Origin: Halogranum rubrum
Lineage (GTDB): Archaea; Halobacteriota; Halobacteria; Halobacteriales; Haloferacaceae
DNA: 64,000 nucleotides
NCBI RefSeq assembly: GCF_900114455.1
Contig: NZ_FOTC01000001.1
Coordinates: 310,001 to 374,000 of the forward strand
Direction: 5' to 3'
Made by a program: the position numbers and the translations under genes. Below the pieces are notes generated by a model. It was not told the origin of the DNA, made no database searches, and saw nothing but the letters and a program-made list of their open reading frames with translations. Positions 32,081 through 51,628 of the stretch are shown here, one piece after another (position 1 is the first letter of the stretch; every line of letters begins with the position of its first letter).

Positions 32081-32272
32081 TCTCACTCTCAACCGACGGC
32101 AACGAATCGGCTCGGCTACGTTTGTACTGCTGTTGTCGCCTGTCTCTCGGTGCTGTCGAGCAGTGGGTGAGAGCCACGCTTCCGATGAGGTTACGGACTC
32201 ATTCACGAGTTGCTGAGTGGTGACGATTCTCGCTGTCGCTTCGGGTGCCAGAACACATCGGCTGATAACTAC

Positions 32273-33541
32273 TCATCTCTTCTCCAGTCGCCACCGCTCG
32301 CCAAGTGCATCAGCGACGGTCCCGGGTGCAGTCACGTGGACGACCGATAGTGGGACGTTCGTGTGTCTGTCCTCGTTGTCGACAGCCTCGGGGTCTGGAA
32401 GCGTGAACTGTATCTCTCGCGACTCATCACCGACCGTCTCGAAGGCGAGCGTCTGTGTCCCGAAGCATCTGTCTACCAAGTCCTTCTCGACGGAGAGTCC
32501 AGTGACGGCGTCACGTTCGAGACGTGCTTGTGGGGTGTCCAACACCGTGTCGTGGACGATGAGCACGTCGTCGTAACAGTGGTATTCGACCCAGCCGTAA
32601 CGAACGTAGCGAGCAGTCGCCTGTAGCCCCACGAACGCACCGATGACAGCGAACGGAGCGACCACCAGCGTTGACGGCGCAAAGACGAGGAGCGACACGG
32701 CAATCGCGTAGAACAACAGCACGCCGCTGGTCAGCGAGTACAACACTCCCTGATAGAGTGCGTCGACGAGACGCACTCGCCGAGGTGTACGTACTCGATA
32801 GGTCGGTGCTCCCTCGGGGACGTCGATGGGAACAGGCTCGATCTCTGTCTCGGTGCTCCCGTATAGCCTGTAAAAGACCCCACGGGCGTCTTCGTTTTGC
32901 TGGACCTGCAACGCACGAAGGTCGTACACGAGTTTGCCACCGATAATCACCCACAGGACACCTGCACTCCCGAGTGCGTCACCAAACACGCCAGCAATGA
33001 GCAGGAGCGCTCCGATGCCGAAGAAGTGCTTGAACGAGGCCAACAGGACCGAACGCGGCGAGTGGTCGCGATATCCCCCGGCACGGAAGTAGTCGGTGGC
33101 AGTCTCGATACCCCGACCGACGAATACCCCAAGCCCACCGAGCAGTAGCTGCCTAGCCACGGGGTCCGTGACAACCGGGTCCGAGAGCGCAAACACGCCG
33201 AGGGCGACGGTGAGTTCGAGCGGGGCGAACAGGACAACCGCGACGATGAGCATGGGGAGATTTCGGAGATAGACTGGCGGGAGTGGACCGGGGACCGCCG
33301 TCGACCCGCGTTTTGCTTGCAACGGGGCCAACAGTCGCAGGTTCTCGACGGCGTTGTTCGGACGCTTGGCCGCAAAGGGAAGCTTGACCACTGACCAGAA
33401 CAGCACGGCGACGAGTTCGAGAACGACGACTCCTAACAGTGCAGTCGTCGACCAGCCGAACGCGAGGACGCCGATAGGGGCGATAAGATTCGAGCCGAGT
33501 ACGGCAACGACACCGAGTCGGTACGTGGAGGGCCGTCGCAT
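32273..33541 (-). CDS. Multi-pass membrane protein, possibly DUF6498-type with C-terminal PH-like domain
   Basis: 422 residues. Hydrophobic segments near 10-50, 94-118, 130-150, 165-200 and 260-310 suggest eight or more helices. After about 310, a soluble region (EYHCYDDVLIVHDTVLDTPQARLERDAVTGLSVEK...) looks like a bacterial PH-like beta domain. The early segment KLPFAAKRPNN and the overall layout recall haloarchaeal DUF6498-containing proteins, but I hold this loosely. No operon partner on the same strand. Confidence 0.6.
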   Translation of the reverse strand: MRRPSTYRLGVVAVLGSNLIAPIGVLAFGWSTTALLGVVVLELVAVLFWSVVKLPFAAKRPNNAVENLRLLAPLQAKRGSTAVPGPLPPVYLRNLPMLIVAVVLFAPLELTVALGVFALSDPVVTDPVARQLLLGGLGVFVGRGIETATDYFRAGGYRDHSPRSVLLASFKHFFGIGALLLIAGVFGDALGSAGVLWVIIGGKLVYDLRALQVQQNEDARGVFYRLYGSTETEIEPVPIDVPEGAPTYRVRTPRRVRLVDALYQGVLYSLTSGVLLFYAIAVSLLVFAPSTLVVAPFAVIGAFVGLQATARYVRYGWVEYHCYDDVLIVHDTVLDTPQARLERDAVTGLSVEKDLVDRCFGTQTLAFETVGDESREIQFTLPDPEAVDNEDRHTNVPLSVVHVTAPGTVADALGERWRLEKR

Positions 33542-33647
33542 ACGTCCGGGAGTTACGCGTCAAATATATCACCTGTGACATCGCTCCTCGCAGACCCGAA
33601 CTGGCGGTAGTGACACGAACCTCTGTCAGTTGTAGATCCGCTGTGGG

Positions 33648-35093
33648 CTACTGACCTCCAAAGACGAGAGATTTGACCACGACAGGAACCGTCTGACTCG
33701 ACAACATCGGCTCACCGACGTCGAGATAATCGCCGTCACTCACAGCAATCTCGTCGATGACGATGAGCGGCGACAAGTCACTCGAACTCGCTCGCAGACA
33801 TTGCGCGAGTGCTTTCGCACAGTTCTGTCTCGGAACGAGTACGACTGGCAACTGCGTGTCGACGTAGCCGGCGTCCACATAGCCCTGCGTGAGTGCCTGT
33901 GCAAGAGTCTGCATGCGGGCGTACGAGAGCGACCCAACGTCGGGGAGGGCTACTGCAAGCCCTGCTAACTGCTCTGTTTCATGGAGAGCAAGCCCATGTT
34001 CCAACTGCCGACACACCTCCGCAGCGAGTGACGTACAATCTGTGCCAGCGAGCGACACCTCGACGACGGGGAGGTTTCGCAGTGGGAGGACGTCTTCGTC
34101 GAGCGACACTGTGGTCCCACTGAAAGACGTCGTCTGTGTTCCGGCACCGATGACAGTCGCCCGAATCGTCTCGTTCGGCGAGCGGTACGCCAGCGGAGAC
34201 GACTCGAGTCGGTCCCGGATTGCTGCGGCGAGGAAGTTGCCGAAGTCTCCGTACGCGAACGTCTCTGTATCTGTGTCCGATGCGATTAGCTGTCCGACGC
34301 CACCGCTGAAGCAAACCCCATCGAGCGATCGGGCGGCGTACTCGCCATCCCCGATGGTGAGTGCCTTCGTCGTCGAACTGCGCCCACTTCCGTCGATAGT
34401 CTCGAAAACTACATCAGCCATCAACGCGGCCAGTTCGTGGAGCTCTCCTTCTGTCGGACGAGACCCGACGTCCAGAGAGAGGCCTGCGGTTTCCAGCAAC
34501 TGCGCCGCCGGGACAGAGACGTGCGTAATCGTCCCGCTCGTGTCAAATCGGAGCAGTCGACCGCCGACGTCGAGACACCGCGTTTCGACGACCGAGTCAC
34601 CGGCGAACAGACACATGTTGGTCGTCCCGCCACCGATGTCGACGTTGAGAATCGTCGCCTCTCGCTCTCGTGCCCACGCCGCAGCCCCCGAGCCGGTACC
34701 AGCTAGCACGGATTCTAGTTCGGGACCTGCCGCAGCGACGACGAACTCGCCAGCGTCGGCCGCAATACGCGTCACCAACTCTTCGGCGTTCGTCTTGTAC
34801 GAGGACTCGCCAGTGACGATGACGGCACCGCTGTCGATGCTCGCAGGGGTGTAGCCTGCGTTCTCGAACTCGGTCGTAACGAGGTCGGCAATCGCATCGA
34901 CATCGAGCGTCTGGTGGTCCAAAAGCGGCGTCTCGTAGATAGTCCCTCGATAGACGATGTCGGTGTCCTCGATTTCGACGTTCACCGCACCGAGTCCTGT
35001 CGTCGAGAGGGTGAGTTCACTGATTATCAGCTGTGTCGTCGTGGTGCCGATATCGATACCGACGCTCGTGAGGGTGGGTGTCTCTGTGGCCAT
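33648..35093 (-). CDS. eutA: Ethanolamine ammonia-lyase reactivase EutA
   Basis: 481 residues. ASKHA-type ATPase motifs: GIDIGTTTTQLIISE at the N-terminus and NVDIGGGTTNMCLFAGD near 170-186. LTIGDGEYAARSLDGVCFSGGVGQL near 245-270 is typical of EutA. It exchanges damaged cobalamin for fresh adenosylcobalamin on EutBC in an ATP-dependent way. It starts 11 bases after the EutC stop and is the last gene of the eutBCA unit. Confidence 0.92.
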   Translation of the reverse strand: MATETPTLTSVGIDIGTTTTQLIISELTLSTTGLGAVNVEIEDTDIVYRGTIYETPLLDHQTLDVDAIADLVTTEFENAGYTPASIDSGAVIVTGESSYKTNAEELVTRIAADAGEFVVAAAGPELESVLAGTGSGAAAWAREREATILNVDIGGGTTNMCLFAGDSVVETRCLDVGGRLLRFDTSGTITHVSVPAAQLLETAGLSLDVGSRPTEGELHELAALMADVVFETIDGSGRSSTTKALTIGDGEYAARSLDGVCFSGGVGQLIASDTDTETFAYGDFGNFLAAAIRDRLESSPLAYRSPNETIRATVIGAGTQTTSFSGTTVSLDEDVLPLRNLPVVEVSLAGTDCTSLAAEVCRQLEHGLALHETEQLAGLAVALPDVGSLSYARMQTLAQALTQGYVDAGYVDTQLPVVLVPRQNCAKALAQCLRASSSDLSPLIVIDEIAVSDGDYLDVGEPMLSSQTVPVVVKSLVFGGQ

Positions 35094-35104
35094 CGTTCAC
35101 CCCG

Positions 35105-35833
35105 TCACTCCAAGTCGAGACCGCTTCCCTGCTGTTCGTGCATCGTCGCCACGAGTTCGACGATCTGTGCGCCCGCCTCAATCGCCGGCAGCCCATCCGG
35201 GTGGATGTTCGATATCACCGACTTTTTCGCCGTTGGCTTCCCTCGCTCGGGGCCATAGACCAGGTACGCGCTCAGACTTTTCGCGGTGTTCAGCCCTGGC
35301 CGTTCCCCGATGAGGTTCACCACGATCTCCGCCTCGAGTTCCTCGCCGATGGCGTCCATCACGTCGACACGGCCGAACTCCACGAACAGCGGTGTGCCGA
35401 CGGTGAAGCCCCGTTCTTCGAGTCCATCGATGAGAATCGGCAGGAGGTCACCAACGTTCGCGTCGACGGCGGTCGAACTGAGGCCATCACAGACGACGAG
35501 TTGCACGTCTGGTGCGTGAATGCACGCTTCGCGGAGTTCCGTGACTGTCGCGTCGCTGATCTCTCGACCCAAATCTGGCCGGGCGAGATACTCGTCTTGA
35601 TCCGATACACGGCTCGTGATCTTGTGAAGCCCTGCTCGTTCGATTGTTTCCTCGGAGACACGTGTGAGCACGGCGTCGCGAGCCCGCGCATGATCCGCCC
35701 GAAAGGACAGTACCGACGCCGTTCGTGGCCGGCGACCACTGCGGCCAACTCCGAGTCGAGATGGACTCGCCTCGAGGATTCGATCGAGTGCTGTCTCGTC
35801 GTCGCCGTCGGCACGCGATTCAGCATCGGTCAT
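35105..35833 (-). CDS. eutC: Ethanolamine ammonia-lyase small subunit EutC
   Basis: 242 residues from the ATG that overlaps the EutB stop by four bases; upstream in-frame codons lie inside eutB and are rejected. Landmarks: SPSRLGVGRSGRRPRTASVLSFRADHARARDAVLTRV, QLVVCDGLSSTAVDAN and VVNLIGERPGLNTAKSLSAYLVY, followed by the C-terminal Ile-His-Pro-Asp-Gly-Leu-Pro stretch. It binds adenosylcobalamin together with EutB and lies at the subunit interface. Confidence 0.93.
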   Translation of the reverse strand: MTDAESRADGDDETALDRILEASPSRLGVGRSGRRPRTASVLSFRADHARARDAVLTRVSEETIERAGLHKITSRVSDQDEYLARPDLGREISDATVTELREACIHAPDVQLVVCDGLSSTAVDANVGDLLPILIDGLEERGFTVGTPLFVEFGRVDVMDAIGEELEAEIVVNLIGERPGLNTAKSLSAYLVYGPERGKPTAKKSVISNIHPDGLPAIEAGAQIVELVATMHEQQGSGLDLE

Positions 35834-37236
35834 TGGGTTCCCTCCTGTCTCAAGTGTTCCTCGGGTTCGTCTAAGAAGACCGTCAGATCGCCCGCCTTCT
35901 CGGTCAACTGTCCATCTTCGACGATACCCATGGCCTCGAGCCACGACTCGAACTCCGGGGCAGGATGGACGTCGAAGATGTCCCACAGTGCAGCCGCGTC
36001 ATGGTAGCTATTCGATTGGTAGTTGAGCATCGTGTCGTCACCCATGGGAACGCTGATGAAGTAGTTCGACCCAGCAGCCGTCAGTAAGACGGCCAAGTTC
36101 TCGATATCGTTTTGGTCGGCTTGGATGTGGTTCGTGTAACAGGCGTCGATGCCCATCGAAATCCCCGTCAACTGGCCCATAAACACGTCTTCGAGCCCCG
36201 CTCGAATGACCTGTTTCCCGTCGTAGAGATACTCGGGGCCGATGAAGCCGACGACGGTGTTCACGATGAACGGGTCGTACCGCTTTGCGAGGCCGTAACA
36301 GCGCGCTTCCAACGTTACCTGATCGACGCCTGCGTGGGCATCGCTAGAGAGCTCCGAGCCTTGGCCCGTCTCGAAGTACATGAAGTTCGGCCCAGCGGCG
36401 GTACACTCGTCTTCGCCAAATGCATACGCCTCGTCGAGCAGTTCCACATCGATACCGAAGCTCTCGTTTCCGGCCTCCGTTCCAGCCAGACTCTGAAACA
36501 GCAGGTCCGCAGGCGCACCGTTCTCGACCGCCTCCATCTGCGTCGTGATGTGCGAGAGGACACAGTTCTGCGTTGGGATCTCCCACGTCTCGATGAACTC
36601 CTTCGTTATTTCGAGGAGACGCTTCGTCTGTTCAGCGTTATCCTCGACCGGGTTGATGCCGATGACGGCGTCGCCGACGCCGTACGACAGCCCTTCTCGA
36701 ATCGAGTTCCGGATGTTGTCGATGTCGTCGGTCGGGTCGTTTGGCTGGAGGCGAAACGAGAGTGTTCCCTCGCCACCGATGGTGTTGTTACAGCGCGCCG
36801 TCACGGTCATCTTCGAGGTCGCCTGAATCAGATCCAGATTCGACATGAGTTTTGCGACGGCGGCGACCATCTCGCTCGTCAGCCCCGGCCGAATCTCGGC
36901 AATCTCTCGCTCTGTCGTTTCCTCGGCGAGCAGGAACTCACGGAGCTCCGAGACGGTCCACTCACGAAGTTTCCCATATACGTCCTCGTCCACTGCATCT
37001 TGGATGACCCGTGTCACCTCGTCTTCGTCGTAGGGAATCACGGGATTCTCTCGGAGAGTCGCCAACGAAACTCGGCTGAGCGCGTCTTTGGCCGCGACCC
37101 GTTCTGCAGCGGAGTCCGCCGCAATGTCTGCGAGTTCGTCGCCGGTCTTCTCTTCGTTGGCCTTCGCTAACACCTCGGTGAGCGAGTCGAACGAATAGCG
37201 TGTCCCGGTGATTGTGGATTCAAAGTCACTGGTCAT
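35830..37236 (-). CDS. eutB: Ethanolamine ammonia-lyase large subunit EutB
   Basis: 468 residues, near the usual ~455. The TIM barrel carries VTARCNNTIGGEGTLSFRLQPND near 145-170, the substrate-binding region QNCVLSHITTQMEAVENGAPADLLFQSLAGTEAGN, and GPNFMYFETGQGSELSSDAHAGVDQVTLEARCYG. With EutC it converts ethanolamine to acetaldehyde and ammonia by a B12 radical mechanism. A palindrome covers the TATA-like site about 40 bases before the ATG. No acetaldehyde dehydrogenase, ethanolamine permease or microcompartment shell gene lies in the window. Confidence 0.95.
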   Translation of the reverse strand: MTSDFESTITGTRYSFDSLTEVLAKANEEKTGDELADIAADSAAERVAAKDALSRVSLATLRENPVIPYDEDEVTRVIQDAVDEDVYGKLREWTVSELREFLLAEETTEREIAEIRPGLTSEMVAAVAKLMSNLDLIQATSKMTVTARCNNTIGGEGTLSFRLQPNDPTDDIDNIRNSIREGLSYGVGDAVIGINPVEDNAEQTKRLLEITKEFIETWEIPTQNCVLSHITTQMEAVENGAPADLLFQSLAGTEAGNESFGIDVELLDEAYAFGEDECTAAGPNFMYFETGQGSELSSDAHAGVDQVTLEARCYGLAKRYDPFIVNTVVGFIGPEYLYDGKQVIRAGLEDVFMGQLTGISMGIDACYTNHIQADQNDIENLAVLLTAAGSNYFISVPMGDDTMLNYQSNSYHDAAALWDIFDVHPAPEFESWLEAMGIVEDGQLTEKAGDLTVFLDEPEEHLRQEGTQ

Positions 37237-37275
37237 TGGTGCTATATGGGGCGGATCGGTCTAAGTGGTAATGGC

Positions 37276-37289
37276 TAGCATTTATGCTA
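37276..37289 (-). promoter_or_regulatory. Palindrome overlapping the eutB promoter
   Basis: TAGCAT-TT-ATGCTA is a perfect 14-base palindrome. On the minus strand its centre reads GCATAAATGC, a TATA-like core about 45 bases before the eutB ATG. A regulator bound here would block promoter access. Confidence 0.45.
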
Positions 37290-37552
37290 CGCGGTAAGGA
37301 CGCTTTCAGTCTCGCAACCGCTCAGACGTCAGTCGTGTGACTAATCTCGGCACTGTCTAGTTAAGGCCAGTTTGAGAAACGAGCGGATCGTAAATCTAGT
37401 ACTTTGCTTGACCTAGAACTGCTTACAGAGTCGTTGGAAACGGCGAATTATTACGCCTGATCGGCATATAACCAGGCGGAAAACCCTGAGGCGGCCGAAA
37501 TTAGTTCTGTGGTTCAAACGAAGCGTGTATTGACGACATTGATATGGAGACA

Positions 37553-37575
37553 CACCCCTCGTTTGGAGTGAAAAA
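37553..37575 (-). repeat. ORB-like G-rich repeat, copy 1 (inverted)
   Basis: On the minus strand it reads TTTTTCACTCCAAACGAGGG followed by GTG. Identical at its core to copies 3 and 4, opposite orientation. Confidence 0.6.
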
Positions 37576-37621
37576 CAGTCGTACCTACTGGTTAAAACGA
37601 TTGGCAAATTACACTTCTTGA

Positions 37622-37695
37622 ACTGTAGAGGCGAGCAGACGCTCGGTTTGAAATCCCATGGCGGGTTCCTGCGTCTTTAGGCGTGGGAGGAGGTC
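37622..37695 (+). mobile_element. Relic of an IS200/IS605-type right end (tnpB tail / guide-RNA scaffold)
   Basis: A 9-base stem TCCTGCGTC / GGCGTGGGA (with G-U pairs) around TTTA, followed by GGAGGTCAATG, has the form of the haloarchaeal tnpB 3' end, where the sequence encodes both the protein tail and the RNA scaffold. A short ACTGTAGAGGCGAGC before it may be the decayed end of tnpB. No upstream tnpB frame survives. Confidence 0.45.
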
Positions 37696-37839
37696 AATGG
37701 AGTGTCTGAGCTGAGACGAAATCTCAGTATTCTAAGTGTTGCAGCCGACTGGATTTCAGTCAACGGAATCCGGCCCACTTAAATTCAAACAGGGTTGAGA
37801 GGATGTTATCTCATCTGCACCCTCTTTGCTCTGGTTTCG

Positions 37840-37864
37840 TTTCACTCAAAATGAGGGGTGGGTG
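37840..37864 (+). repeat. ORB-like G-rich repeat, copy 2 (degenerate)
   Basis: Reads TTTCACTCAAAATGAGGGG then TGGGTG; differs from copy 4 in the middle (AAAATG for CAAACG) but keeps both ends. Confidence 0.55.
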
Positions 37865-38119
37865 TTACTCTACTCTCATTAATCAAGGGCACCCTTAAAT
37901 CGACACGCAGATGGCTTTTGTGAGTAAAACCCATTGAGAGTCACTGTAACGGTATTATACCGGGTTTCTACATACAGGTGAAACCACCTCTGCCTATCAT
38001 CAAGAACGATTAATTCAGACCCCGCGGTGCTTCTTTTGTAGTGGTGATCTTCCTTCGCTCACATCGACTACACAAACACAGACAGGCTTCAGAACACATA
38101 TCTCGCACGAATGTGGCGC

Positions 38120-38145
38120 TTTTTCACTCCAAACGAGGGGGTGGG
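38120..38145 (+). repeat. ORB-like G-rich repeat, copy 3
   Basis: TTTTTCACTCCAAACGAGGG followed by GGTGGG; one extra G in the G-string relative to copy 4. Confidence 0.6.
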
Positions 38146-38355
38146 GTCTGAGGGTCGTCGATTATCAATAGTACTGAGTTATCCTGCCCTACCCAGTACC
38201 GACTCGGGGGTTAACAGGTCTATGCCGTCCATTTTCACCTGCAAGGGAGGTGTGTCTGAGATTTTCCTCCCTCACAAGTGTATTTCACTCGCAGCGGTGA
38301 TGGTTCCGACTGATTCACCCAGCGAAAAGAGAGTCATAGGGCCCGAAACCAGACT

Positions 38356-38382
38356 TTTTTCACTCCAAACGAGGGGTGGGTG
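38356..38382 (+). repeat. ORB-like G-rich repeat, copy 4
   Basis: TTTTTCACTCCAAACGAGGG followed by GTGGGTG. Closest copy to the start of the MFS gene's 3' end. Confidence 0.6.
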
Positions 38383-38578
38383 ACACCGTCGGCCCCCTTA
38401 GTTGGTTCTCCAAAACATAGAGAGTACGTTTCGTGAGTCACTCCGCCTGGGAGACGCTCAGGACTCGATACAATGGAACTGCGCGTTTAGATAAAACTAC
38501 CCACATCTCTCTGTCGAGAACAAACGAAGCACGTCTGAGACGTGTACGCCGGATTCACGATTGGCCTAGTTCGCGGAG

Positions 38579-39781
38579 CTACTTCGGCTCAGGCGCGCGC
38601 AGTGCGACGAGAACGCCGAGGAAGGCGACGCCACCGGCGACGAGAAACGCCGGCCCGTAGCCCGCCTGGTCGATAATGATGCCAGCGGCGATGGGTGCAG
38701 CAAACGCTCCGAGCAAGCCGATGCTCGTCAGCAGCGAGACAGCAGTGGCACGCACCGCGACTGGGACGAGTTCGGCGATGTACGAAAAGAGCAGTCCAGT
38801 GACGAGTTGGATGGCGAAGCCGACGGCGAGGACGGTGCCGACGACGACGCCAAGTTGCGAAACGAATGCGAAGGCGACGATGGCGGGGGTGGCGACGACG
38901 AACGACAAGACGACGACGGGACGACGCTTTCCATTGAACACTCTGTCGGAGATGACCCCGCTACTCGACCGTCCGACGGCTCCAATCGCCGGAAACAGTG
39001 CCGTCAGTAGGCCGCCCGTCGCCAGCGAGATATCGAATCCCTCGACGAGGTAGCTCGGTAACCAGGTGTTGACGAAGAGATACAGCGAGTAGGCGAGAAA
39101 GCAGAGCACGCAGACGGTCCAGACAGCTCGACTGGTGAACAGCGCCCGGAGCGCCGTCCGGTCAGGCGCAGCCGCGTCGACACCGGGGACGTGGCGACGA
39201 GTTGCGAGTAAGAAAATCGTGACGCCGACGACACCGAGAGCGGCGTACAGCGGGAGAATCGCCGGCCAACCAGCCACGTCCGCAACGAGCGGGCTACCGA
39301 ACTGTCCGAGCGCGAACCCAACGGGTGCGCTCGCGGTGAACACGCCGACAGCGGTTGCTCGGTGTCGAGACGCGACGGCACTGCCGACGACGTTCGCACC
39401 CGCATTCCAGAAGATGACGTACGCGATACCACCCAGAACCCGAGACACGAGTAACCAGAGGTAGGCGCCGGCGGTGGCTGCGTACCAGCCCCACACACCG
39501 GCGACGACGAGTGCGACGGTACCGAAGCAGACCACCCGACGTACCGAGAAGCGATCGAGGACGATCCCGGTGGGGATGCTCGTGACGACCGCAGTCGCAT
39601 ACATGATACTGACGAGCCAGCCTGCCGTGCTCGCTTTGAGACGCAGCGTCTCTTGGATGAGCGGCAGAACGCTCGCCGGTGCAATTTCGTAGGCTGCGGC
39701 CGCCGTCGAGAGCACGAAGAACCCAACGACGAGACCGAGCGTTTCGAGGCGAGAGCCAGTGGTGTTCGTTTGGGTGCTCAC
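38579..39781 (-). CDS. MFS transporter
   Basis: 400 residues, GTG start, about 12 membrane helices. DRFSVRRVVCFGTVALVVAGV is the loop 2-3 motif and SRVLGGIAYVIFWNAGANVVGS the fourth helix region; SGVISDRVFNGKRRPVVVLSF repeats the motif in the second half. The layout fits sugar- or anion-type MFS carriers (CynX/sialate-like), without enough detail to choose a substrate. Its 3' end faces the origin-like region. Confidence 0.85.
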   Translation of the reverse strand: MSTQTNTTGSRLETLGLVVGFFVLSTAAAAYEIAPASVLPLIQETLRLKASTAGWLVSIMYATAVVTSIPTGIVLDRFSVRRVVCFGTVALVVAGVWGWYAATAGAYLWLLVSRVLGGIAYVIFWNAGANVVGSAVASRHRATAVGVFTASAPVGFALGQFGSPLVADVAGWPAILPLYAALGVVGVTIFLLATRRHVPGVDAAAPDRTALRALFTSRAVWTVCVLCFLAYSLYLFVNTWLPSYLVEGFDISLATGGLLTALFPAIGAVGRSSSGVISDRVFNGKRRPVVVLSFVVATPAIVAFAFVSQLGVVVGTVLAVGFAIQLVTGLLFSYIAELVPVAVRATAVSLLTSIGLLGAFAAPIAAGIIIDQAGYGPAFLVAGGVAFLGVLVALRAPEPK

Positions 39782-39998
39782 TGTCTTTGTCCTCGGTTCT
39801 CTGAGCTATCGCAAACCCTTTGCTGTCTGTCCTGTGGTCGTCGCTCATCTCCACTTGACGAGTCTCTGTAGACGGGCGTGTGTACGAGGCCGAAGGGAGT
39901 TCTCCAGAGCAACGATACGGAACGTCGTCTAGCGAGTCCGCTTCGTGCTCGAAAGATAGTGTCTGAGGATATTTCCCTCAAGAGCACCAACCGTCAGT

Positions 39999-40772
39999 AT
40001 GCTCCAACTCTTCGGATATCTCTCCCTCTTTCGAACCTCGTTTCGGGTTGCGCTCAAGCAGAAGATTCGCTATCCTGCGGCTGCGCTCGCGTACTACGCG
40101 TTCGTCTCTTTCGCCCCGCTTCTCGTGTTGACGTTTGCTGCAGTCGGCAGACCGCTCGCGGTAGAGTTCTCTCGGGTGGCCCCTTCGTTTCTGACCCCGC
40201 CAGTACGGAAGCTGGTCACCCAGTCGATAACGACGGCGAACGGTCGAACCGGTGCCGGAGTGCTCGCCGTACTCGTGTTGGGGTGGTGCGGTGCGAACGC
40301 CGTCGGTGATATCCGAACCGTTATCGAACAGATCGAAGGGACGGCCCAGAACCGACTCCGGGACCTCGTTCGCGATTCGGTCGTCATCCTGGGGAGTATC
40401 GGGCTCGCACTCCTCGCTGTCGCGACGACGAGTATCCTCTTTGCGCTGCCTCCCGCCGGCCCACTCGTCGAACTCGCCTCATTTTTCGGCCTCTGGGTGA
40501 CGCTCGCTGTCGTGTTCGTCCCCCTCTACTACGTGCCGTCGCGTGTGGTAGCGACACCGCGCGCGGCGCTCCCCGGTGCGCTCACAGCTTCCTTCGGGTG
40601 GACGGTGCTCAACACTGCGCTTCACTTCTACTCGACTCACGCTGGCCAATACGCAATCTACGGAGTCCTCAGCGGAATCGTGATTCTCCTCACGAGTTTC
40701 TACCTGGCCGCGTCGCTCCTTTTGACCGGCATCATCGTCAACGACCAGCGTCAAACTGAGTCGTCCCTCTGA
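39999..40772 (+). CDS. YihY/BrkB-family inner membrane protein
   Basis: 257 residues with about six hydrophobic segments. RYPAAALAYYAFVSFAPLLVLTFAAVG near the N-terminus and FVPLYYVPSRVVATPRAALPGALTASFGWTVLNTAL near 165-205 are family landmarks, and the end YAIYGVLSGIVILLTSFYLAASLLLTGIIVND is typical. These proteins were once annotated as ribonuclease BN in error; their true role is unclear. Stand-alone gene. Confidence 0.88.
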   Translation: MLQLFGYLSLFRTSFRVALKQKIRYPAAALAYYAFVSFAPLLVLTFAAVGRPLAVEFSRVAPSFLTPPVRKLVTQSITTANGRTGAGVLAVLVLGWCGANAVGDIRTVIEQIEGTAQNRLRDLVRDSVVILGSIGLALLAVATTSILFALPPAGPLVELASFFGLWVTLAVVFVPLYYVPSRVVATPRAALPGALTASFGWTVLNTALHFYSTHAGQYAIYGVLSGIVILLTSFYLAASLLLTGIIVNDQRQTESSL

Positions 40773-40945
40773 GCGGGGTTGCTTCGAACAGGATGTATGT
40801 GACCTCGTACTCTACTCCACGGTGACACCGCGAAACAGCAGTGACCGCTCTGTCGGCGTGCTCTGCTCAGTCGGCCGAGTCGACCCACCGACTGTGTCCG
40901 CGTGACACGACTCAAAAAACGGCGTCGTTCGACTGCTTTCCGGGT

Positions 40946-43138
40946 TTACTCTTCGCTCTCTGTCTCCGCCTCACTCTCCTCGGGGTTCTCGTCGCCCTTT
41001 CCGGGGTTCTCGTCGCCCTTTCCGGGGTTCTCGTCGCCTTTTCCTGGGTTCGCGTTGCCTTCGGGTTCGAAGACGTAGAGACAGTCGTTCGGATACGACC
41101 GCTGGGACTCGTTGAACCCGTCCTCACAACAGAGGACGCGGCCGTCGTCCATCACGTAGACGTTGTCGACGTTACGAAGCGCGTCGTTCGCCACCTTTGG
41201 ACCGTCCGTGAAGTCCGGCCCGACGATGACGGGTTCGAGCGTCGAGATGTTGTACTGCTCTTCGAGTTTTCCGCGATAGACGACACCACCGTCGACGCGG
41301 TCCATCTGGATGTCGCCCGTCTCGTCTGCGAGGTCGTCGTTGAACTCGGAGATGCCGAAGTAGACGTAGTCACCCGGCCGAGCGTTGGACTCGCTGTCGA
41401 CGCCTTCGGCCTTGTTGAACTCGATGGAGGCCCCGATCTCCTTTGCGGCGGCGCGAGTCTCGATGAACGGCACCTTGCGGAGTTCTTCGTCGACACCGTC
41501 CGGTCCGTCCGCCTCGTACTGGCTGGCCCACTCGACGATCTCCTCGTTGCTGACGTAGTTGGGGTTGCCGTACTCGATGACGTACAGGTCGGCGGCTTCG
41601 ATCTTGTCTTCGAGTGAGGCGTCCGCGTCGACGGCGAACTCGTGGTCGTCGACGGCAGGATGGGACGCGTCGCCGATGGAGACGTAGTCCGCCTGCGTCA
41701 CGTCGTCGTACTCGGCGATCCACGTCTCGATTTCGGCGTTGGAGGCGTGTCCGAGCTCCAGCCACTCGACGTCGAGGTCGGTGTTGGCGGGTGACGCTCG
41801 TGGCTCCGTAATCGGCGCGGAGATCTTCGGGGCGTAGAGCGTCCCCGCGATTTCGGTCGGGTCGTCGTAGCTGGTCATCGGGCGGTCGGCGACGAACTTG
41901 TAGATACCCTTGGAGTCGCCGTCCGAACAGCCGTAGACCGTCTTCTTGTCGTTCTGGAAGTCCGGGCACTCCCACGCGGCGCGGCCCATCACGTAGTGCT
42001 TGATAGGTTCGATGTCGTCCGGGTCAGCGGCGTCGCCGTTGCGGAACTCGACGTGGTAGCCGTAGCGGTAGGGGTTCGGATAGACGTCGCTGATGAGTTC
42101 GAGACTGTTCTCACCAGTGTCCTCGTTGACCCGCTCTGCACCGAGGTAGTACGCGAGGAACTCGACGCCGGTGAGTGCGAAAGCACCCTGTGGAGTCCAT
42201 CCCTCGTCGAGAGCGCCGTCGTCGACGTAGTCGCTGATGACACCCGAAATATCGGCGGGGTTCGGTCGATTCCAGAAGTGCGCGGCACCGAGAAGCCCCG
42301 CACCCGTCCCCGCGTCGACGATGTCGCCGACGGTGTTCGTCAGCGAGACGCGTGGGTGTGCGTAGTGTTCCTCGGAGGTGACCATCGTCTCCCACGGCGT
42401 CGTGTCACCGTAGCAGTTGATACGTGTCCCCCCGAGACTGCGGAACGCCTCCGTGTTAGCGAGGTTTCTCGCGTTCTCGAGGTCCGAGTGCCACTCGCCA
42501 TCGTCGCAGTAGATGGGGATGCGCGAGACGTTTCCGGGACTGTTCTCCCAGTTCGTGAAGAGATAGTGGTCGTACTCCGACTCACGAGGGGCCTCGACGA
42601 GGCGGTTACAGTCGGGGTTCGTCGCCGCTGCGCCGTACTGGGTGCCTGCGAAGTTGTCACGCGTGACGTTCGTACCGTCGGGTGTCTGGGTCACTCCGAG
42701 GAGTCCTGCACCGTCGTCGACCGAATCACGACCCCGGGCGAGATACGTGTACTCGCCCGCGCTACTCCGAATCCGTGTCTGCTCGTCCTTCGTATTGGGA
42801 ATCGGTAGTTCTTCGAAGTCGTCGTTGTTGCCGTCGTCGGCGAACTGGAACCCGCTGAAGTAGCCGACACCGGGCTGGCTGTACTTCCCTTGGTTCTCGT
42901 CGCTGGGGTGTTGATTACTGAAGAGAAGCGTCCCGTCGTCGAAGACACACGGTCCCGTCACTTCGGCCCCGAACGCCGTGTTCGCGAACCGCTTGAGTTC
43001 GCCTTTGACACTCGGGGCACCCGGCGTGTCCGATTCGTCGATTTCGCTCTCGCTCGCGTTCGCGACGCCGCTCACACTAGCGCCAAGCGCGACGGCCGCG
43101 GACGTCGCCATCAACTGTCGTCGGTTGATATCTACCAT
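40946..43138 (-). CDS. PhoX-family (DUF839) secreted alkaline phosphatase
   Basis: 730 residues. The N-terminus NRRQLMATSAAVALGASVSGVANA is a Tat signal ending in AxA. The body has PhoX-type landmarks: GTLLFSNQHPSDE, TRINCYGDTTPWETMVTSEEH, and GRAAWECPDFQNDKKTVYGCSDGDSKGIYKFV. PhoX enzymes are Ca/Fe-dependent phosphomonoesterases outside the cell, usually induced by phosphate limitation. The last ~35 residues carry three tandem PGKGDEN units and an acidic tail, not found in standard PhoX. An inverted repeat lies just upstream. Confidence 0.88.
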   Translation of the reverse strand: MVDINRRQLMATSAAVALGASVSGVANASESEIDESDTPGAPSVKGELKRFANTAFGAEVTGPCVFDDGTLLFSNQHPSDENQGKYSQPGVGYFSGFQFADDGNNDDFEELPIPNTKDEQTRIRSSAGEYTYLARGRDSVDDGAGLLGVTQTPDGTNVTRDNFAGTQYGAAATNPDCNRLVEAPRESEYDHYLFTNWENSPGNVSRIPIYCDDGEWHSDLENARNLANTEAFRSLGGTRINCYGDTTPWETMVTSEEHYAHPRVSLTNTVGDIVDAGTGAGLLGAAHFWNRPNPADISGVISDYVDDGALDEGWTPQGAFALTGVEFLAYYLGAERVNEDTGENSLELISDVYPNPYRYGYHVEFRNGDAADPDDIEPIKHYVMGRAAWECPDFQNDKKTVYGCSDGDSKGIYKFVADRPMTSYDDPTEIAGTLYAPKISAPITEPRASPANTDLDVEWLELGHASNAEIETWIAEYDDVTQADYVSIGDASHPAVDDHEFAVDADASLEDKIEAADLYVIEYGNPNYVSNEEIVEWASQYEADGPDGVDEELRKVPFIETRAAAKEIGASIEFNKAEGVDSESNARPGDYVYFGISEFNDDLADETGDIQMDRVDGGVVYRGKLEEQYNISTLEPVIVGPDFTDGPKVANDALRNVDNVYVMDDGRVLCCEDGFNESQRSYPNDCLYVFEPEGNANPGKGDENPGKGDENPGKGDENPEESEAETESEE
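40981..41043 (-). repeat. Three 21-bp tandem repeats inside the PhoX-type gene
   Basis: Three nearly identical 21-base units encode consecutive PGKGDEN heptads near the C-terminus. Being in multiples of three they keep the frame, so copy number could vary without destroying the protein. Confidence 0.85.
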
Positions 43139-43180
43139 CCAGAAGAAATTGTATCTATATCATTAAAATTATTGGCATAA

Positions 43181-43198
43181 TCTAATTTATGAATTAGA
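43181..43198 (-). promoter_or_regulatory. Inverted repeat upstream of the PhoX-type gene
   Basis: TCTAATT-TATG-AATTAGA, perfect 7-base arms, about 45-60 bases before the PhoX ATG in a very AT-rich stretch that also provides TATA candidates. A phosphate-responsive regulator site is a guess from context. Confidence 0.4.
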
Positions 43199-43240
43199 TA
43201 GTATATCTCCAACTGCGCAGTATTTTCACGCACCCGACTG

Positions 43241-43669
43241 CTACCCCAGCCCCTGCTCGACGACACCGGTTCGAATCTCTTCGGCCTGCCCCTGCACCCA
43301 CTCGACGTACTTGCGGACCCGGTGGGGTTTCTTCCCGAAGAACGAGGCAACCCAGTCACGGTCGGTTCCTGGTTGGGTGAGGAAGTACGCTGCCAGCACC
43401 GCGCGCCCTGCGCCGATGACTTCCGGGGGAACCCCGCGTTCACCCGTCCCTTCTTCGACGAACCCGTTTGTACAGAAGTAGATGTCCGCGTACAACTCCG
43501 CCATCTCGGGGTCGTCGAAACTCATCGGCGTGTGTTCGGGTGCCTCGAACCGATATTGGGGACGGTCCACGTCGGGTCGAACGCACTCGACGATGCGGAC
43601 ATCCAGTACGTACTGTTCGTGAATCGACTCGCGTTCTTCGTTCGGGGTTTCTTCGTTTAGCTTCGACAT
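43241..43669 (-). CDS. Hypothetical haloarchaeal protein
   Basis: 142 residues from the ATG giving MSKLNEETPNEERESIHEQ; an earlier start would add about 89 residues of atypical, basic composition. Contains RPQYRFEAPEHTPMSFDDPEMAELYADIYFCTNGFVEEG and GRAVLAAYFLTQPGTDRDWVASFFGKKPHRVRKYVEWVQGQAEEIR. The second half looks like a helix-turn-helix region by its helix pattern, but I cannot place it in a family. No membrane segment. Confidence 0.65.
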   Translation of the reverse strand: MSKLNEETPNEERESIHEQYVLDVRIVECVRPDVDRPQYRFEAPEHTPMSFDDPEMAELYADIYFCTNGFVEEGTGERGVPPEVIGAGRAVLAAYFLTQPGTDRDWVASFFGKKPHRVRKYVEWVQGQAEEIRTGVVEQGLG

Positions 43670-44545
43670 GGGTGGTGGTCGTCTGATGCTCGTCTCACCA
43701 CTTCCGTGGCGGACGGAGGAGCCGGGTGCATTTCGGTCGTACCCCTCCTGATGTTCTCTTGTTACTTCACAATTGTGTGTGATAGTCTCGTCGGCCGGTC
43801 TCACCGACGGGGATGCTGAGGCGGAGACACCGCGTGAGACTATAATGACCGACCGCAGCGGCCGGGGGGCAGGCGACCAACGGACGCAGAGAGCATGTTG
43901 AGTCGGAGGACCGATCGTGAAGTACCCGGGGGTCAAGCTCTAGGCACTCTGCCTTGATTTCTGTGGACCGTTTTTCCGGAAGCATCCGAAGGAGTTTCCG
44001 CCGTCACCTGATCCGGCACCCGTTCGCTCAAGGTTAGAATTATAAACTTTTATCAACATTAGTCAGGAGAAGATGGTGTAGTCGACAATATTTCTGGGAC
44101 GAAAAGAACGGTCAGTCCCCGTCTTCTAATCCGAAGTTGAATTTTGTTTATCGCTCATTTTCACGGTGGAGTCAGTATATTCTCCGTCAAAATGGCCAGA
44201 TCAGAACTAAAAAGGCACACACACATCTCGGAAAGGAGGGATGAATCAATCTCTTCAACAGAGACCATTGGGTTCGGGTCAGATCCAACCAGATCCGTAC
44301 ATAAACTATTTCGAGAAGCTCTTTCTCGCGCACTCTTGTGTTCTGAGGACAATATAATTGCTCGGGGTTGAGAAGCCAACTTCACCTCGGAGGCAGGGAT
44401 CGGCGACCACGTCGGTCGGACTCCGAGTGGAGTCGACTCGACGGCAACCTCGTTCGCGTGAAGTAGCGTCCGCCTCTCAGTAGTGTTCACTGAGCGCGCG
44501 GCCCGGTACCTTAAAACTAAGAGGCGTGTCCTCCTGATAAGAGTC
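43670..44545. other. Intergenic region of about 870 bases, no gene recognised
   Basis: A GC-rich part (to about 43950) gives way to an AT-rich part (44030-44360). TATA-like AATTATAAACTTTTATC occurs near 44037-44053. The longest frames (72-75 codons) do not look like haloarchaeal proteins. The right end is the promoter of the aldolase gene. Confidence 0.5.
44511..44518 (+). promoter_or_regulatory. TATA box of the aldolase gene, near-leaderless
   Basis: TTAAAACT ends about 28 bases before the GTG start, so transcription should begin at or a few bases before the start codon. This supports the GTG over the upstream ATG at 44483, which would lie before the promoter. Confidence 0.55.
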
Positions 44546-45190
44546 GTGACCGCCGATATCGCCCAGCGAGTCGTAGAGACGGGTGTCGTCGCCATCATCC
44601 GTGGGACCGACCCCGAAACAGCCATCGAAACCGTCGACGCGCTTCGACGCGGTGGTGTCGACGTCGTCGAAGTGACGGCGAACACCAACGGCGTCCTCGA
44701 TATGATTCGAGACGTCTCCTCGACGTTCACCGCCGAAGAGATTACCGTCGGGGCGGGGACGGTCCTCGACAGTGAAACCGCACGTGCAGTGCTACTCGCT
44801 GGTGCAGAGTTCGTCGTCACGCCGTCGTTCGATGCGGAGACGGTGGAGACGGCGAACCGCTACGGTGCGACGTCGATTGTCGGTATCGCCACGCCGACGG
44901 AAGCGTTGGAAGCCTACACCACCGGTGCCGACATGGTGAAGGTGTTTCCCGCGTCGACGCACGGCCCCGAGTTCGTGTCGGCGTTGGGGGGCCCGCTCGG
45001 TCACATCCCTGTGGTCCCGACCGGTGGTGTCTCGCTCGACAACGTCGGTGCGTTCTTCGATGCTGGCGCGTCGGCCGTCGGTGTCGGAAGCTCGATCGTC
45101 GACAACGCGGCCATCGCCCGTGGCGACTACGAAGCGATCACAGCGAACGCACGGGCCTTCGTGGACGCCGTCGAGACGGCGCGCGACTGA
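44546..45190 (+). CDS. 2-keto-3-deoxy-6-phosphogluconate/galactonate aldolase
   Basis: 214 residues from a GTG placed by the TATA box. Class I aldolase: Glu42 in VVEVTANT, the Schiff-base Lys132 in DMVKVFPAS, with TVGAGTVLD, VTPSFD and VPTGGV as family landmarks. It splits a 2-keto-3-deoxy-6-phospho sugar acid into pyruvate and glyceraldehyde 3-phosphate. Beside galactonate dehydratase it most likely acts on the galactose-derived isomer (KDPGal). It converges on the SDR gene of the main operon. Confidence 0.9.
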   Translation: MTADIAQRVVETGVVAIIRGTDPETAIETVDALRRGGVDVVEVTANTNGVLDMIRDVSSTFTAEEITVGAGTVLDSETARAVLLAGAEFVVTPSFDAETVETANRYGATSIVGIATPTEALEAYTTGADMVKVFPASTHGPEFVSALGGPLGHIPVVPTGGVSLDNVGAFFDAGASAVGVGSSIVDNAAIARGDYEAITANARAFVDAVETARD

Positions 45191-45271
45191 AGCGAAGCAG
45201 TCGCGCCCTCAATTCGTTATACCCGAAACGCCGGTGTGGTCGCGCTCGACGAGAGAGAAGAGTACCGACGC

Positions 45272-46063
45272 TCACTCGGTGCGACGCGCCCGGTAGTCAG
45301 GGAGCATGTCGTCTTGCATCACGGCCGTTCGGCCACCGTCGGCGAGGACGTAGCTTCCGGTGACGAACGCTGCGTCGTCGCTCGCGAGAAACGAGACGAC
45401 GCCAGCGACGTCGTCGGGCGTCCCGAGTCGGCCGACCGGGTGGATCGACTCCAACTTCGCACGATACTCGGGGTCCATCTCGTCGGTCGTCCGGTCGATG
45501 GCAATCCACCCAGGATTGACGGTGTTGACACGGACGTGCGGACCGAAGTCGAGCGCCATCGCCCGCGTCATGCCGTTGATGCCCGCTTTCACCGCGTTGT
45601 AAGGGAACATCTCCGGCATCGTCAAACACGCGTGGTTCGACGAGATGTTGACGATGGCTCCGTCGTCCATGTACTCCAGGGCGTGCTTCGCACAGAGCCA
45701 GTACGATCGAAAGTCCGTCTCGAGGACGAACTCCCAGTCGTCCATCGTCGCCTCGTCAGCGGCCGTATTCGTCTCGACACCCGCATTGTTGACGAGGACG
45801 TCGAGACCGCCGTAGGCTTCCGCAGTCGCCTCGACGAGCGCCGCGATAGCGTCCGGGTCACGCATGTCCGCCCGGACGAACGTCGCTTCTCCGCCCGCCT
45901 CGGTGATACGGTCGACGACCGTGCGGCCGTCGGCTTCGGTTCGTCCCGTCACGACAACGTTCGCCCCTTCTGCGGCGAATCGCTCGGCCGTTCCGGCACC
46001 GATACCGCGAGTCGACCCAGTGACGAGCACCGTTTGGCCTTCGAATCGTTGGGCCGCTACCAC
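45272..46063 (-). CDS. Short-chain dehydrogenase, candidate galactose 1-dehydrogenase
   Basis: 263 residues from a GTG overlapping the dehydratase stop by seven bases; a longer form would start inside that gene. TGSTRGIG Rossmann motif, VNNAG, catalytic Ser in VNISSN and Tyr/Lys in YNAVK, then RVNTVNPGWIAIDR. Last gene of the galactoside operon. Aldose 1-dehydrogenases of this family oxidise galactose or glucose to the lactone with NAD(P). The exact substrate is inferred from the operon. Confidence 0.85.
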   Translation of the reverse strand: MVAAQRFEGQTVLVTGSTRGIGAGTAERFAAEGANVVVTGRTEADGRTVVDRITEAGGEATFVRADMRDPDAIAALVEATAEAYGGLDVLVNNAGVETNTAADEATMDDWEFVLETDFRSYWLCAKHALEYMDDGAIVNISSNHACLTMPEMFPYNAVKAGINGMTRAMALDFGPHVRVNTVNPGWIAIDRTTDEMDPEYRAKLESIHPVGRLGTPDDVAGVVSFLASDDAAFVTGSYVLADGGRTAVMQDDMLPDYRARRTE

Positions 46064-47205
46064 TCGGCGACACTCCCGTCGGCGTGGCGCCACACCGGGT
46101 TATGCCACTCTCCGTGACCTGCCCGTTCCTCGATGGCCTCGAGATCGGGTTCGATACCGAGTCCCGGTCGGTCGGGGATGTCGACGTATCCCTCGTGATA
46201 CTCGAAGACCGAGGGGTCTGCGAGGTAATCCAGCACGTCACTCGTCTCGTTGTAGTGGATGTCGAGACTTTGCTCTTGGATGAGCGCGTTCGGTGCGACG
46301 GCGTCGACTTGCAAACAGGCAGCCAGTGCAATGGGACCGAGCGGACAGTGCGGTGCCATCGCTACGTCGTACGCCTCGGCCATCGCCGCGATCTTGTGCA
46401 CCTCGGTGATTCCGCCTGCGTGTGACAGGTCGGGTTGGATGACGTCAACGACGCCTTGTTCGAAGACCTCCTTGAAGTCCCACCGTGAGTACATCCGTTC
46501 GCCCGTCGCGATGGGAGTCGACGTGTGCTCGGCAATCTGGGGTAACGCGTCGTTATGTTCCGGGAGTACTGGCTCTTCGAGGAAGAACGGGTCATACTCT
46601 TCGAGTGCGGTAGCCAACCGCTTGGCCATCGGTTTGGTGACTCGCCCGTGGAAGTCGACGCCGATGTCGACTTCGGGACCGACGGCCTCGCGGACGGCCG
46701 CCAGTCGGTCGCGGGCCTCGGTGACGGCCGCCGGGTTGTCGACGCGCTCGAGTTCTGCCGTCGCATTCATCTTCAGGGCGGAGAAGCCCGCTTCGACCTT
46801 CTCGCGGGCTTTGTCGGCGACGCCGCTCGGTCGGTCACCACCGATCCACTGGTAGACCCGAATCCGGTCGCGAGCGCGCCCACCGAGCAGTTCGTAAACC
46901 GGCGCGTCGTAGTGCTTGCCTTTGATGTCCCACAGCGCTTGGTCGATGCCTGCGATGGCGCTCATCAATACCGGCCCACCGCGGTAGAAGCCGCCACGGT
47001 ACATCGTCTGCCAGTGGTCTTCGATGCGCATCGGGTCTTTCCCGAGCAGGTAGGTTTGCATTAGCTCTTCGACAGCCGCACGTACCGTGTGGGTGCGCCC
47101 TTCGACGACCGGTTCCCCCCAACCGATGAGCCCGTCGCTCGTCTCGATTCGGAGGAACAGCCATCGCGGTGGCACCGCGTACAGTTCGTAATCGACAATT
47201 TGCAT
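46057..47205 (-). CDS. dgoD: D-galactonate dehydratase
   Basis: 382 residues, enolase superfamily. The sequence follows E. coli DgoD closely over its whole length, including PPRWLFLRIETSDGLIGWGEPVVEGR, GGFYRGGPVLMSAIAGIDQALWDIKGK and the identical ending NSVAEW-like GSVAEW. Catalytic and metal residues are visible: Asp184 and His186 in VDFHGR, Glu210 in LEEPVL, Glu236 in TGERM and His286 in APHCPLGP. It turns D-galactonate into 2-keto-3-deoxy-galactonate. Sits between the sugar ABC ATPase and the SDR. Confidence 0.95.
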   Translation of the reverse strand: MQIVDYELYAVPPRWLFLRIETSDGLIGWGEPVVEGRTHTVRAAVEELMQTYLLGKDPMRIEDHWQTMYRGGFYRGGPVLMSAIAGIDQALWDIKGKHYDAPVYELLGGRARDRIRVYQWIGGDRPSGVADKAREKVEAGFSALKMNATAELERVDNPAAVTEARDRLAAVREAVGPEVDIGVDFHGRVTKPMAKRLATALEEYDPFFLEEPVLPEHNDALPQIAEHTSTPIATGERMYSRWDFKEVFEQGVVDVIQPDLSHAGGITEVHKIAAMAEAYDVAMAPHCPLGPIALAACLQVDAVAPNALIQEQSLDIHYNETSDVLDYLADPSVFEYHEGYVDIPDRPGLGIEPDLEAIEERAGHGEWHNPVWRHADGSVAEW

Positions 47206-47209
47206 GATA

Positions 47210-48328
47210 CTACGATTGAATCTCCTTCACACCGACATCCACATCGTCGGTCTTTGTCTTTATCGCATCACCGCTCTCCGCATCGAAGAGGTACAACGCG
47301 TCCTCGTCGAACGCGAACTGTACCGTTTCGCCGGCTTGCGGGCGCATCGAACTATCGACTCGGGCGGTCATGTCGATGTCACCCATCGTCAGATAGAGGA
47401 AGTTTTCGTTCCCCATTGGTTCGACGACGGTCACGTCGACGTTGTTTCCCCCCTCGGAGACGAGTCGCATATCCTCCGGGCGAATTCCCGCGCGGATACG
47501 GTCGTAGCCCTCGACGTAACTGGGGTTCTCTAGCGTGTAACTGAACCCACCTGGCCCGACGAGTGTGTCACCATTCACTTCGGCGGTGAATAGGTTGATG
47601 CTCGGACTGCCGATGAAGTTCGCGACGAACTCGTTGGTTGGCGACCGGTACACCTCCTCGGGTCTCCCGACCTGTTGGAGTCGGCCGTCGTTCATGACGG
47701 CGATGCGGTCACCCATCGCCATCGCTTCCGTCTGGTCGTGGGTGACGTAGACGGTGGTGACGCCGAGTTCGTGCTGGAGCTCCTGTAGCTCGGTCCGCAT
47801 CTGCGCACGGAGCTTGGCGTCCAGATTCGAGAGCGGTTCGTCCATCAAGAACACCTCGGGTTCGCGGACGATCGCACGACCGAGTGCAACCCGCTGTTGC
47901 TGGCCGCCCGAGAGTTCCTTGGGCTTGTCACCGAGCAGATCAGAGATGCCGAGCATGGCGGCAGTCTCCTCGACGCGCCGGTCGATTTCCGCGGAGGTGA
48001 GCTTCGTCGATAACTTGAGCCCGAAGCCGATGTTGCTTCGGACGTCCATGTGCGGATACAGCGCGTAGTTCTGGAACACCATCGCGACGTCTCGTTCTCG
48101 GGCTCGGAGGTCGGTCACGTCGGTGTCCCCGAACTTCAGGGTCCCCGAGGTGACGTCTTCGAGACCGGCGATACAACGAAGCGTCGTCGTCTTCCCACAG
48201 CCGGAGGGGCCGACGAGGACGAGAAACTCCCCATCCTCGATTTGGAAGTCGACGTCTTCGACGGCGACGACAGCGTCACTGCCCTCACCGAACTCCTTTC
48301 GTAGTGTGTTGACGTTGATTCGTGCCAT
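47210..48328 (-). CDS. Sugar ABC transporter ATPase (MalK/UgpC type)
   Basis: 372 residues. Walker A GPSGCGKTT, signature LSGGQQQRVALGRAIVREP, Walker B VFLMDEPLSNLDAKLR, and a C-terminal regulatory TOBE/OB region (about 240-372) ending in a distinct acidic tail. Lies two bases from the permease and five from the dehydratase genes. Powers uptake of a galactoside in this context. Confidence 0.93.
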   Translation of the reverse strand: MARINVNTLRKEFGEGSDAVVAVEDVDFQIEDGEFLVLVGPSGCGKTTTLRCIAGLEDVTSGTLKFGDTDVTDLRARERDVAMVFQNYALYPHMDVRSNIGFGLKLSTKLTSAEIDRRVEETAAMLGISDLLGDKPKELSGGQQQRVALGRAIVREPEVFLMDEPLSNLDAKLRAQMRTELQELQHELGVTTVYVTHDQTEAMAMGDRIAVMNDGRLQQVGRPEEVYRSPTNEFVANFIGSPSINLFTAEVNGDTLVGPGGFSYTLENPSYVEGYDRIRAGIRPEDMRLVSEGGNNVDVTVVEPMGNENFLYLTMGDIDMTARVDSSMRPQAGETVQFAFDEDALYLFDAESGDAIKTKTDDVDVGVKEIQS

Positions 48329-48330
48329 AA

Positions 48331-49215
48331 TTACTCCTTGACGGACCCCGCGAGAATCCCGCTGACAAACTGCTTTTGCAGGAACAAGAACAGCAGGAAG
48401 ATGGGGATAATCGACAGCGTTGCGGCGACCATGATCTGGTCGTAGTAGACGCGCTGTGCACCCACGAGTTGGTTGATTGCGACCGGAATCGTGTACTTGT
48501 CACCCTCAAGAATGACCAGCGGGAACAAAAAGAGGTTCCACTGGAACAGAAAGAGGATGATCGAGAGCGCCGCCAGCGACGACTTCATCGTCGGCAGCGC
48601 GATGCGGTAGTACAGTTGGAACTCCGTCGCTCCGTCCATCCGCGCCGACTCGAGCAGCGCGTCAGGCAGCGACTTCATGTTCTGCCGCATGAGAAAGATG
48701 CCGAGCGGATTCGCCGCCCACGGGAGGATAATCGCCCAGTAGGTGTTGGTCATCCCGAGTTGGCTCATGAGCAAGAACAGTGGGATGACGAGCAGTTGGA
48801 TGGGCAACACCAGCGTCGCCAGGATGGTGTAGAAGATGGGCTCTTTGAACCGGAACTCGTATTTCGCGAACGCGAAGCCAGCCATCGAACAGATGACGAG
48901 CGAGAGCAGGGTGTAGACGACGGCGATGAAGACGCTGTTGGCGATGGCACCGAGGAACCCGAAGTCGGTGCCGAGCAACTCGTCGAACATCAGAAAGCCG
49001 ATGTTCAGACGGTCTTGCAGCGCCGAAAAGTTCGCCCAGAACTCGCCGCCGGGGAAGAGCTGTGGGGCTGTCCCAGCGGTGAGAAACGCCTCTTCGGGGA
49101 GCGTCGATGCGATGACGATCCAGTAGAGCGGGACGATGGTAAGTACGATCATCACGAGGATGAACGTGTACGTGAGGAACTTCCAGACGCCCTCCCTGCG
49201 GTCGGCTTCACGCAT
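48331..49215 (-). CDS. Sugar ABC transporter permease (MalG type)
   Basis: 294 residues from the ATG that overlaps the partner permease stop by eight bases. Six membrane helices. The EAA motif DALLESARMDGATEFQLYYRIALPTMKSSLAALSI near 175-210 contacts the ATPase. The N-terminal VWKFLTYTFILVMIVLTIVPLYWIV is the first helix. Confidence 0.92.
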   Translation of the reverse strand: MREADRREGVWKFLTYTFILVMIVLTIVPLYWIVIASTLPEEAFLTAGTAPQLFPGGEFWANFSALQDRLNIGFLMFDELLGTDFGFLGAIANSVFIAVVYTLLSLVICSMAGFAFAKYEFRFKEPIFYTILATLVLPIQLLVIPLFLLMSQLGMTNTYWAIILPWAANPLGIFLMRQNMKSLPDALLESARMDGATEFQLYYRIALPTMKSSLAALSIILFLFQWNLFLFPLVILEGDKYTIPVAINQLVGAQRVYYDQIMVAATLSIIPIFLLFLFLQKQFVSGILAGSVKE

Positions 49216-50218: not shown

Positions 50219-50228
50219 GACGGAGACT

Positions 50229-51593: not shown

Positions 51594-51628
51594 AGCTCGT
51601 GATCTACACTGTACATTCGACAAACGAT

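Follow-up and report, generated by a model that had tools for sequence, protein, structure and literature searches.

Haloarchaeal replication origins are described as having at least two origin recognition box (ORB) repeats with a G-string, placed in inverted orientation around an AT-richer segment; the definition of Wu et al. 2012 also requires direct adjacency to an orc1/cdc6 gene, and non-adjacent origins may exist (PMC3528665). In variable regions, haloarchaeal origins are gained, lost or disrupted through transposases (PMC4441112). An example is oriC3-cdc6D of Haloarcula hispanica, the remnant of an origin that sits in a variable region rich in transposons and has been entered by a mobile element; deficient or disrupted origins of this type retain their cdc6 (PMC4441112). 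The dormant origins oriC4-cdc6H and oriP1-cdc6L of Haloferax mediterranei are recently acquired structures in variable regions and are apparently unused. Dormant origins of this kind keep their own cdc6 and fire once the primary origins are removed (PMC4595724). The oriC2D region of Haloarcula hispanica groups many ORBs but contains no initiator gene itself. It comprises 11 ORBs, lies directly beside the cognate cdc6E, and its boxes match this resident initiator (PMC3936714).

We analysed a window of 64,000 nucleotides from contig C6 of Halogranum rubrum, in which an array of four ORB-like boxes lies in an intergenic gap. Like the origins described in PMC3528665, the array combines G-strings with boxes of the TTTC...AAACGAGGGG type, placed in inverted orientation about a segment richer in AT (AT 0.52), and by its box form and layout it therefore matches a haloarchaeal origin as described there. 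Unlike those origins, it has no orc1/cdc6 neighbour. Since this adjacency is lacking, the array lies outside the orc1/cdc6-adjacent class; its cis anatomy is nonetheless that of such an origin. It resembles oriC3-cdc6D in its variable, transposon-rich setting, the Haloferax dormant origins in its apparent recent acquisition and disuse, and oriC2D in being a cluster without an initiator gene. In contrast to the first two, the array is without a cdc6, and ORB-like boxes are found at both edges of the island that carries it.

The box array and its surroundings

The array consists of four boxes of the TTTTTCACTCCAAACGAGGGGTGGG type, each 26–27 bp long, at window positions 37550–38382 between eutB and a major facilitator (MFS) gene. 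One box on the minus strand is followed by three on the plus strand. The features of the gap and its neighbours are, in window coordinates:

35830..37236, minus strand: eutB, followed by eutC and eutA; flanks the array on the left
37347..37451, plus strand: end fragment of a presumed IS6-family element, GGCACTGTCTAGTTAAG...
37550..37575, minus strand: ORB-like box 1, TTTTTCACTCCAAACGAGGGGTGTGT, inverted
37576..37837, no strand: inter-box segment, at the position of the unwinding region in ordinary origins
37616..37701, plus strand: relic of the 3' end of a TnpB (IS200/IS605-type) element, between boxes 1 and 2
37838..37864, plus strand: ORB-like box 2, TTTCACTCAAAATGAGGGGTGGGTG, variant
38120..38146, plus strand: ORB-like box 3, TTTTTCACTCCAAACGAGGGGGTGGGG
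38356..38382, plus strand: ORB-like box 4, TTTTTCACTCCAAACGAGGGGTGGGTG
38529..38559, minus strand: antisense tnpB gene fragment of 31 bp, matching within a tnpB ORF of the sister genome (G043)
38579..39781, minus strand: MFS transporter gene; right neighbour of the array

The boxes span 833 bp, with start-to-start spacings of ~292, 282 and 236 bp. An identical 21-mer is common to boxes 1, 3 and 4, and box 2 differs from the others at two positions of the 18-base core. All boxes have intact G-strings. The copies share no sequence beyond the core of 21–26 bp and so look like protein-binding sites rather than a duplicated stretch. At up to three mismatches, 0.04 chance matches are expected per window, and four were reached in none of 100 shuffles. 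In the 4.57-Mb genome, the 18-base core at up to two mismatches was found only at the four sites of the array. Two further sites appeared at three mismatches, one of which (about C6:539986) kept the G-string. The original prediction had counted four repeats, one inverted and three direct, at similar distances, and all were located as it had described them. It had also named occurrence of the repeat at many unrelated loci as an outcome that would speak against an origin; at up to two mismatches the array is the only such locus.

The gap between eutB and the MFS gene (37237–38578) has a GC content of about 0.49–0.50, compared to about 0.60–0.64 in its surroundings, and no convincing gene was found in it. 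The stretch is thus AT-richer and gene-free, as had been predicted, although it does contain transposon relics. The inter-box segment is about 268 bp long (182 bp without the TnpB relic), and its AT content reaches a maximum of 0.64 over 50 bp. In 12 comparison origins, the inner segment measured 128–782 bp with an AT content of 0.43–0.60, a range that includes the overall value of the array. We take the fragment at 37347..37451 to be an IS6-family end, based on a neighbouring transposase ORF in locus L129 and on the usual form of such ends. Colinearity with the sister genome upstream of eutB breaks off at window position 37348, where this fragment starts.

No relatives of the whole array were found in phages, and viral contigs held no related box (17 bases). 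Among the plasmid matches listed, only the TnpB relic was matched, not the array. A weak, sub-threshold Rfam match to HgcC at 37628–37706 coincided with the 3' end of the TnpB element; the HgcC family may partly overlap with the RNA ends of TnpB elements.

Boxes and initiators in this and other genomes

Because boxes of the same form flank orc1/cdc6 genes in other haloarchaea, in the same divergent order, we classify the array boxes on sequence grounds as ORBs. Elsewhere in the family and order, the box TTTTCACTCTGAACGAGGGGTG, identical at 17 of 19 core positions, occurs around a cdc6 clade in loci L069, L070, L074, L076 and L200. Another box with 17/19 identical core positions, TTTTCACTGAAAACGAGGGGTG, adjoins the cdc6 of L201. 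A third, CTCACTCCAAACGAGGGGTGGGG, surrounds a cdc6 clade in Halorubrum laminariae, Natrialba sp. SSL1 and Halosimplex pelagicum; the core CACTCCAAACGAGGGGTG is shared by the array and the CTCACTCC... box flanking this clade. In most comparison loci, L069, L074, L076, L200 and L201 among them, and in the resident oriC1, minus boxes stand to the left and plus boxes to the right of the inner segment, as they do in the array, which bears out the ORB likeness and inverted placement noted earlier. L074, L076 and L200 also have a distal minus box, separated from the proximal boxes by the cdc6.

The genome encodes about 16 Orc1/Cdc6 proteins. Own boxes were readable for 12 of these resident initiators (L008–L011 and L018; L007 and L012–L017); L019, with no recognised box, L020, L021 and the weak match L023/L024 stood outside the comparison. 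None of the 12 used the box of the array. The comparison with boxes beside resident cdc6 genes, suggested with the original prediction, thus yielded 12 readable cases out of ~16, all different from the array. The nearest resident boxes were those of oriC1 and L009, with 15 of 19 positions identical. For the initiator clades that use near-identical boxes in other genomes, the best resident relatives had 39–46% identity. The resident Orc1/Cdc6 loci (L049–L063) include at least 12 with mutually different box types, and some of their boxes depart from the usual AAACG core, e.g. GAACAAATCGATAGGGGTGAG at L015 and TTACATTCGCGACGGTGGTGTG at L012.

Neither the window nor the island described below, taken over its full length, gave a cdc6 match, and a profile search detected no relic there, which extends the predicted absence of orc1/cdc6 well beyond the immediate neighbours. 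A candidate cdc6 relic near the right edge of the island was rejected: the short tblastn matches at C6:542.6 kb were chance-like, with a profile score of 2.6 bits (E = 26).

GC skew was measured on three stretches. The skew change at oriC1 ranked first or second in its region (z 2.7–2.8), and that at the L014 origin was the highest in its region (z 2.8–3.0). At the array, the turn was unremarkable (z −0.6 and −0.2). The array shows no sign of lasting origin action at its present place; it may have arrived recently or fire rarely.

The island carrying the array

The array lies within a region of deviating composition:

C6:342.08–543.69 kb (window part 32081..64000, the left part), no strand: low-GC island of ~202 kb, absent in the sister genome

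The GC content of contig C6 is about 0.64 up to ~340 kb and again from ~548 kb, and is mostly 0.43–0.62 in between. In the sister genome, the gene ending at C6:342.08 kb (window position 32080) and the gene starting at C6:543.69 kb are adjacent, 260 bp apart, and colinearity continues on both sides beyond these flanking genes; a tnpB element is present in that genome. The region is therefore absent from the same place in a close relative and differs in composition, with a GC content of 0.43–0.63 inside and about 0.64 outside, as expected of an integrated replicon, although it may instead have been deleted in the sister genome. The island contains glycan-related and transport genes as well as transposon genes. 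In the sampled part of its proteins, none was recognised as serving plasmid partition or replication, and its edges carry no att direct repeats beyond chance.

The array is located 5.5 kb inside the left edge of the island. A lone second box, TTTTCACTTAGAACGAGGGGTGTCAC, lies on the minus strand 3.7 kb inside the right edge; it is the G-string-keeping site with three mismatches mentioned above. On a circularised island, this box would lie ~9 kb to the left of the array on the minus strand, in the orientation of the distal minus box of L074, L076 and L200. By the order of these loci, a cdc6 would be expected at the island junction, where the chromosome ends, a DUF6498 gene and the eut genes are now found.

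Origin of the array and alternative explanations

With moderate confidence, we interpret the array as the decayed, initiator-less remnant of an orc1/cdc6-type origin that came with an integrated extrachromosomal replicon, the present ~202-kb island. The divergent boxes would originally have served an Orc1/Cdc6 of the parent replicon, which would have bound them, opened the DNA from box 1 to box 2 and loaded MCM. The circular replicon would have been opened between the lone box and the array, leaving the distal box at the right edge and the remaining boxes at the left edge, with box orientations as expected. After integration and transposon activity, the cdc6 would have been lost; related loci have this gene flanked by the distal minus box on one side and the proximal boxes on the other. 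A TnpB element would have struck the inter-box segment. Today the array probably does nothing, or serves at most as a weak binding site: no resident Orc1/Cdc6 is known to recognise its box, and it is thus probably not used.

The original prediction had offered a dormant or orphan origin, the scar of an integrated replicon or an Orc-titration site. The scar is the best supported of these because of the position at an island edge, the lone box at the other edge, the transposon relics and the lack of a resident cognate initiator. A dormant origin as defined in the literature is less probable since the known ones keep their own cdc6 and are activatable, and the array has none. Titration is possible and gained no positive support. 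Several points speak against this reading. The identical 21-mer is kept in three of four boxes, better than a long-dead remnant would need. The sampled island proteins included none recognised as a plasmid partition or replication protein, att repeats were not found, and the island may have been deleted in the sister genome rather than inserted here. The same box type is also found at a distance from cdc6 on Halobacterium plasmids, among them pSTJ003, whose own Orc is associated with a different box, so that some orphan boxes may serve a distinct role.

A functional or conditionally dormant origin fired in trans by a resident Orc1/Cdc6 encoded elsewhere is unlikely. The initiator could perhaps be one of those without readable boxes (L019, L020, L021 or the weak match L023/L024) or that of the chromosomal oriC1 (L018), whose box is among the most similar resident ones at 15/19. 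The existence of such initiators, the intact G-strings, the inverted boxes and an inter-box AT content as in real origins are all consistent with firing in trans. Yet the skew turn shown by two resident origins is missing, a TnpB relic lies between the boxes, no relative of L019–L021 was found beside this box type in the loci fetched, and active origins of Haloarcula hispanica each depend on a co-located cdc6 (PMC3936714). Improbable, too, is an Orc1/Cdc6-titrating site, even though the grouping of good boxes in the absence of an initiator gene would suit it and the ORB-rich oriC2D region is documented as titrating (PMC3936714). That region has 11 ORBs directly downstream of the gene of the titrated product; here there are four, and none of the resident initiators with readable boxes has a matching one (15/19 at best, for oriC1 and L009).

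It is more improbable still that the boxes belong to a mobile element unrelated to replication. In other haloarchaea, such a box occurs in a ~90-bp dispersed repeat, and single boxes lie inside a gene (L195, L196, L202), but this repeat is absent from the genome, and the array boxes have only their 21–26 bp core in common, no shared flanks and an origin-like order. The least credible alternative is that the boxes are operator sites of a transcription factor for eutBCA or the MFS gene. The array is indeed upstream of eutB, but the distances of the boxes from this gene range from 313 bp to about 1.1 kb, and the MFS gene is directed towards the array, which places the boxes beyond its 3' end. In the sister species, the ~110 bp next to eutB on its upstream side are conserved, yet this species has no box, and a scan of ten more eutB loci in the family gave no box of this class. 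On this comparison of eutB loci, a eut operator was rejected.

The multiple origins of archaeal chromosomes are believed to stem from plasmid origins captured along with the initiators that serve them. Read as a remnant of an integrated replicon, the locus looks like the end stage of such a capture, an origin without its initiator whose boxes remain at both edges of the acquired DNA. Origin loss could here be followed by comparing sister species, and the locus would allow a clean test of what ORBs do when no cognate Orc is present: stay silent, act in trans or titrate.

Similar orphan boxes were observed elsewhere. The Halobacterium hubeiense plasmid pSTJ003 (L259, NZ_LN831305) has two direct boxes at 7722 and 8002, 280 bp apart and ~5.6 kb from an MCM gene. 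Like the array, this pair has no cdc6 beside it, and one of its cores is identical at 19/19 positions; unlike the array, it lies on a plasmid with its own Orc1/Cdc6 ~15 kb away, which has a different box, and no inverted box was seen. Halobellus captivus carries three orphan boxes (L080, 10061–10256; L087) flanked by a serine recombinase-like ORF on one side and a restriction-modification-like ORF of 1435 aa on the other, and no cdc6 was found near this trio. That the island, Halobellus captivus and pSTJ003 represent a recurrent initiator-less class in haloarchaea, used in trans as an origin or replication regulator, we consider doubtful. Single boxes, present on pNRC100 and others, were not counted as evidence for orphan origins, since several lie in the dispersed repeat or inside a gene. 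The ~90-bp repeat (L184–L192) contains one ORB-like box (GTCAGCAAGAGCGGTCGTTTC..TTTTCACTCCGAACGAGGGGTGTCGTCGCGCC) and was found in several haloarchaeal genomes, with some copies at contig ends.
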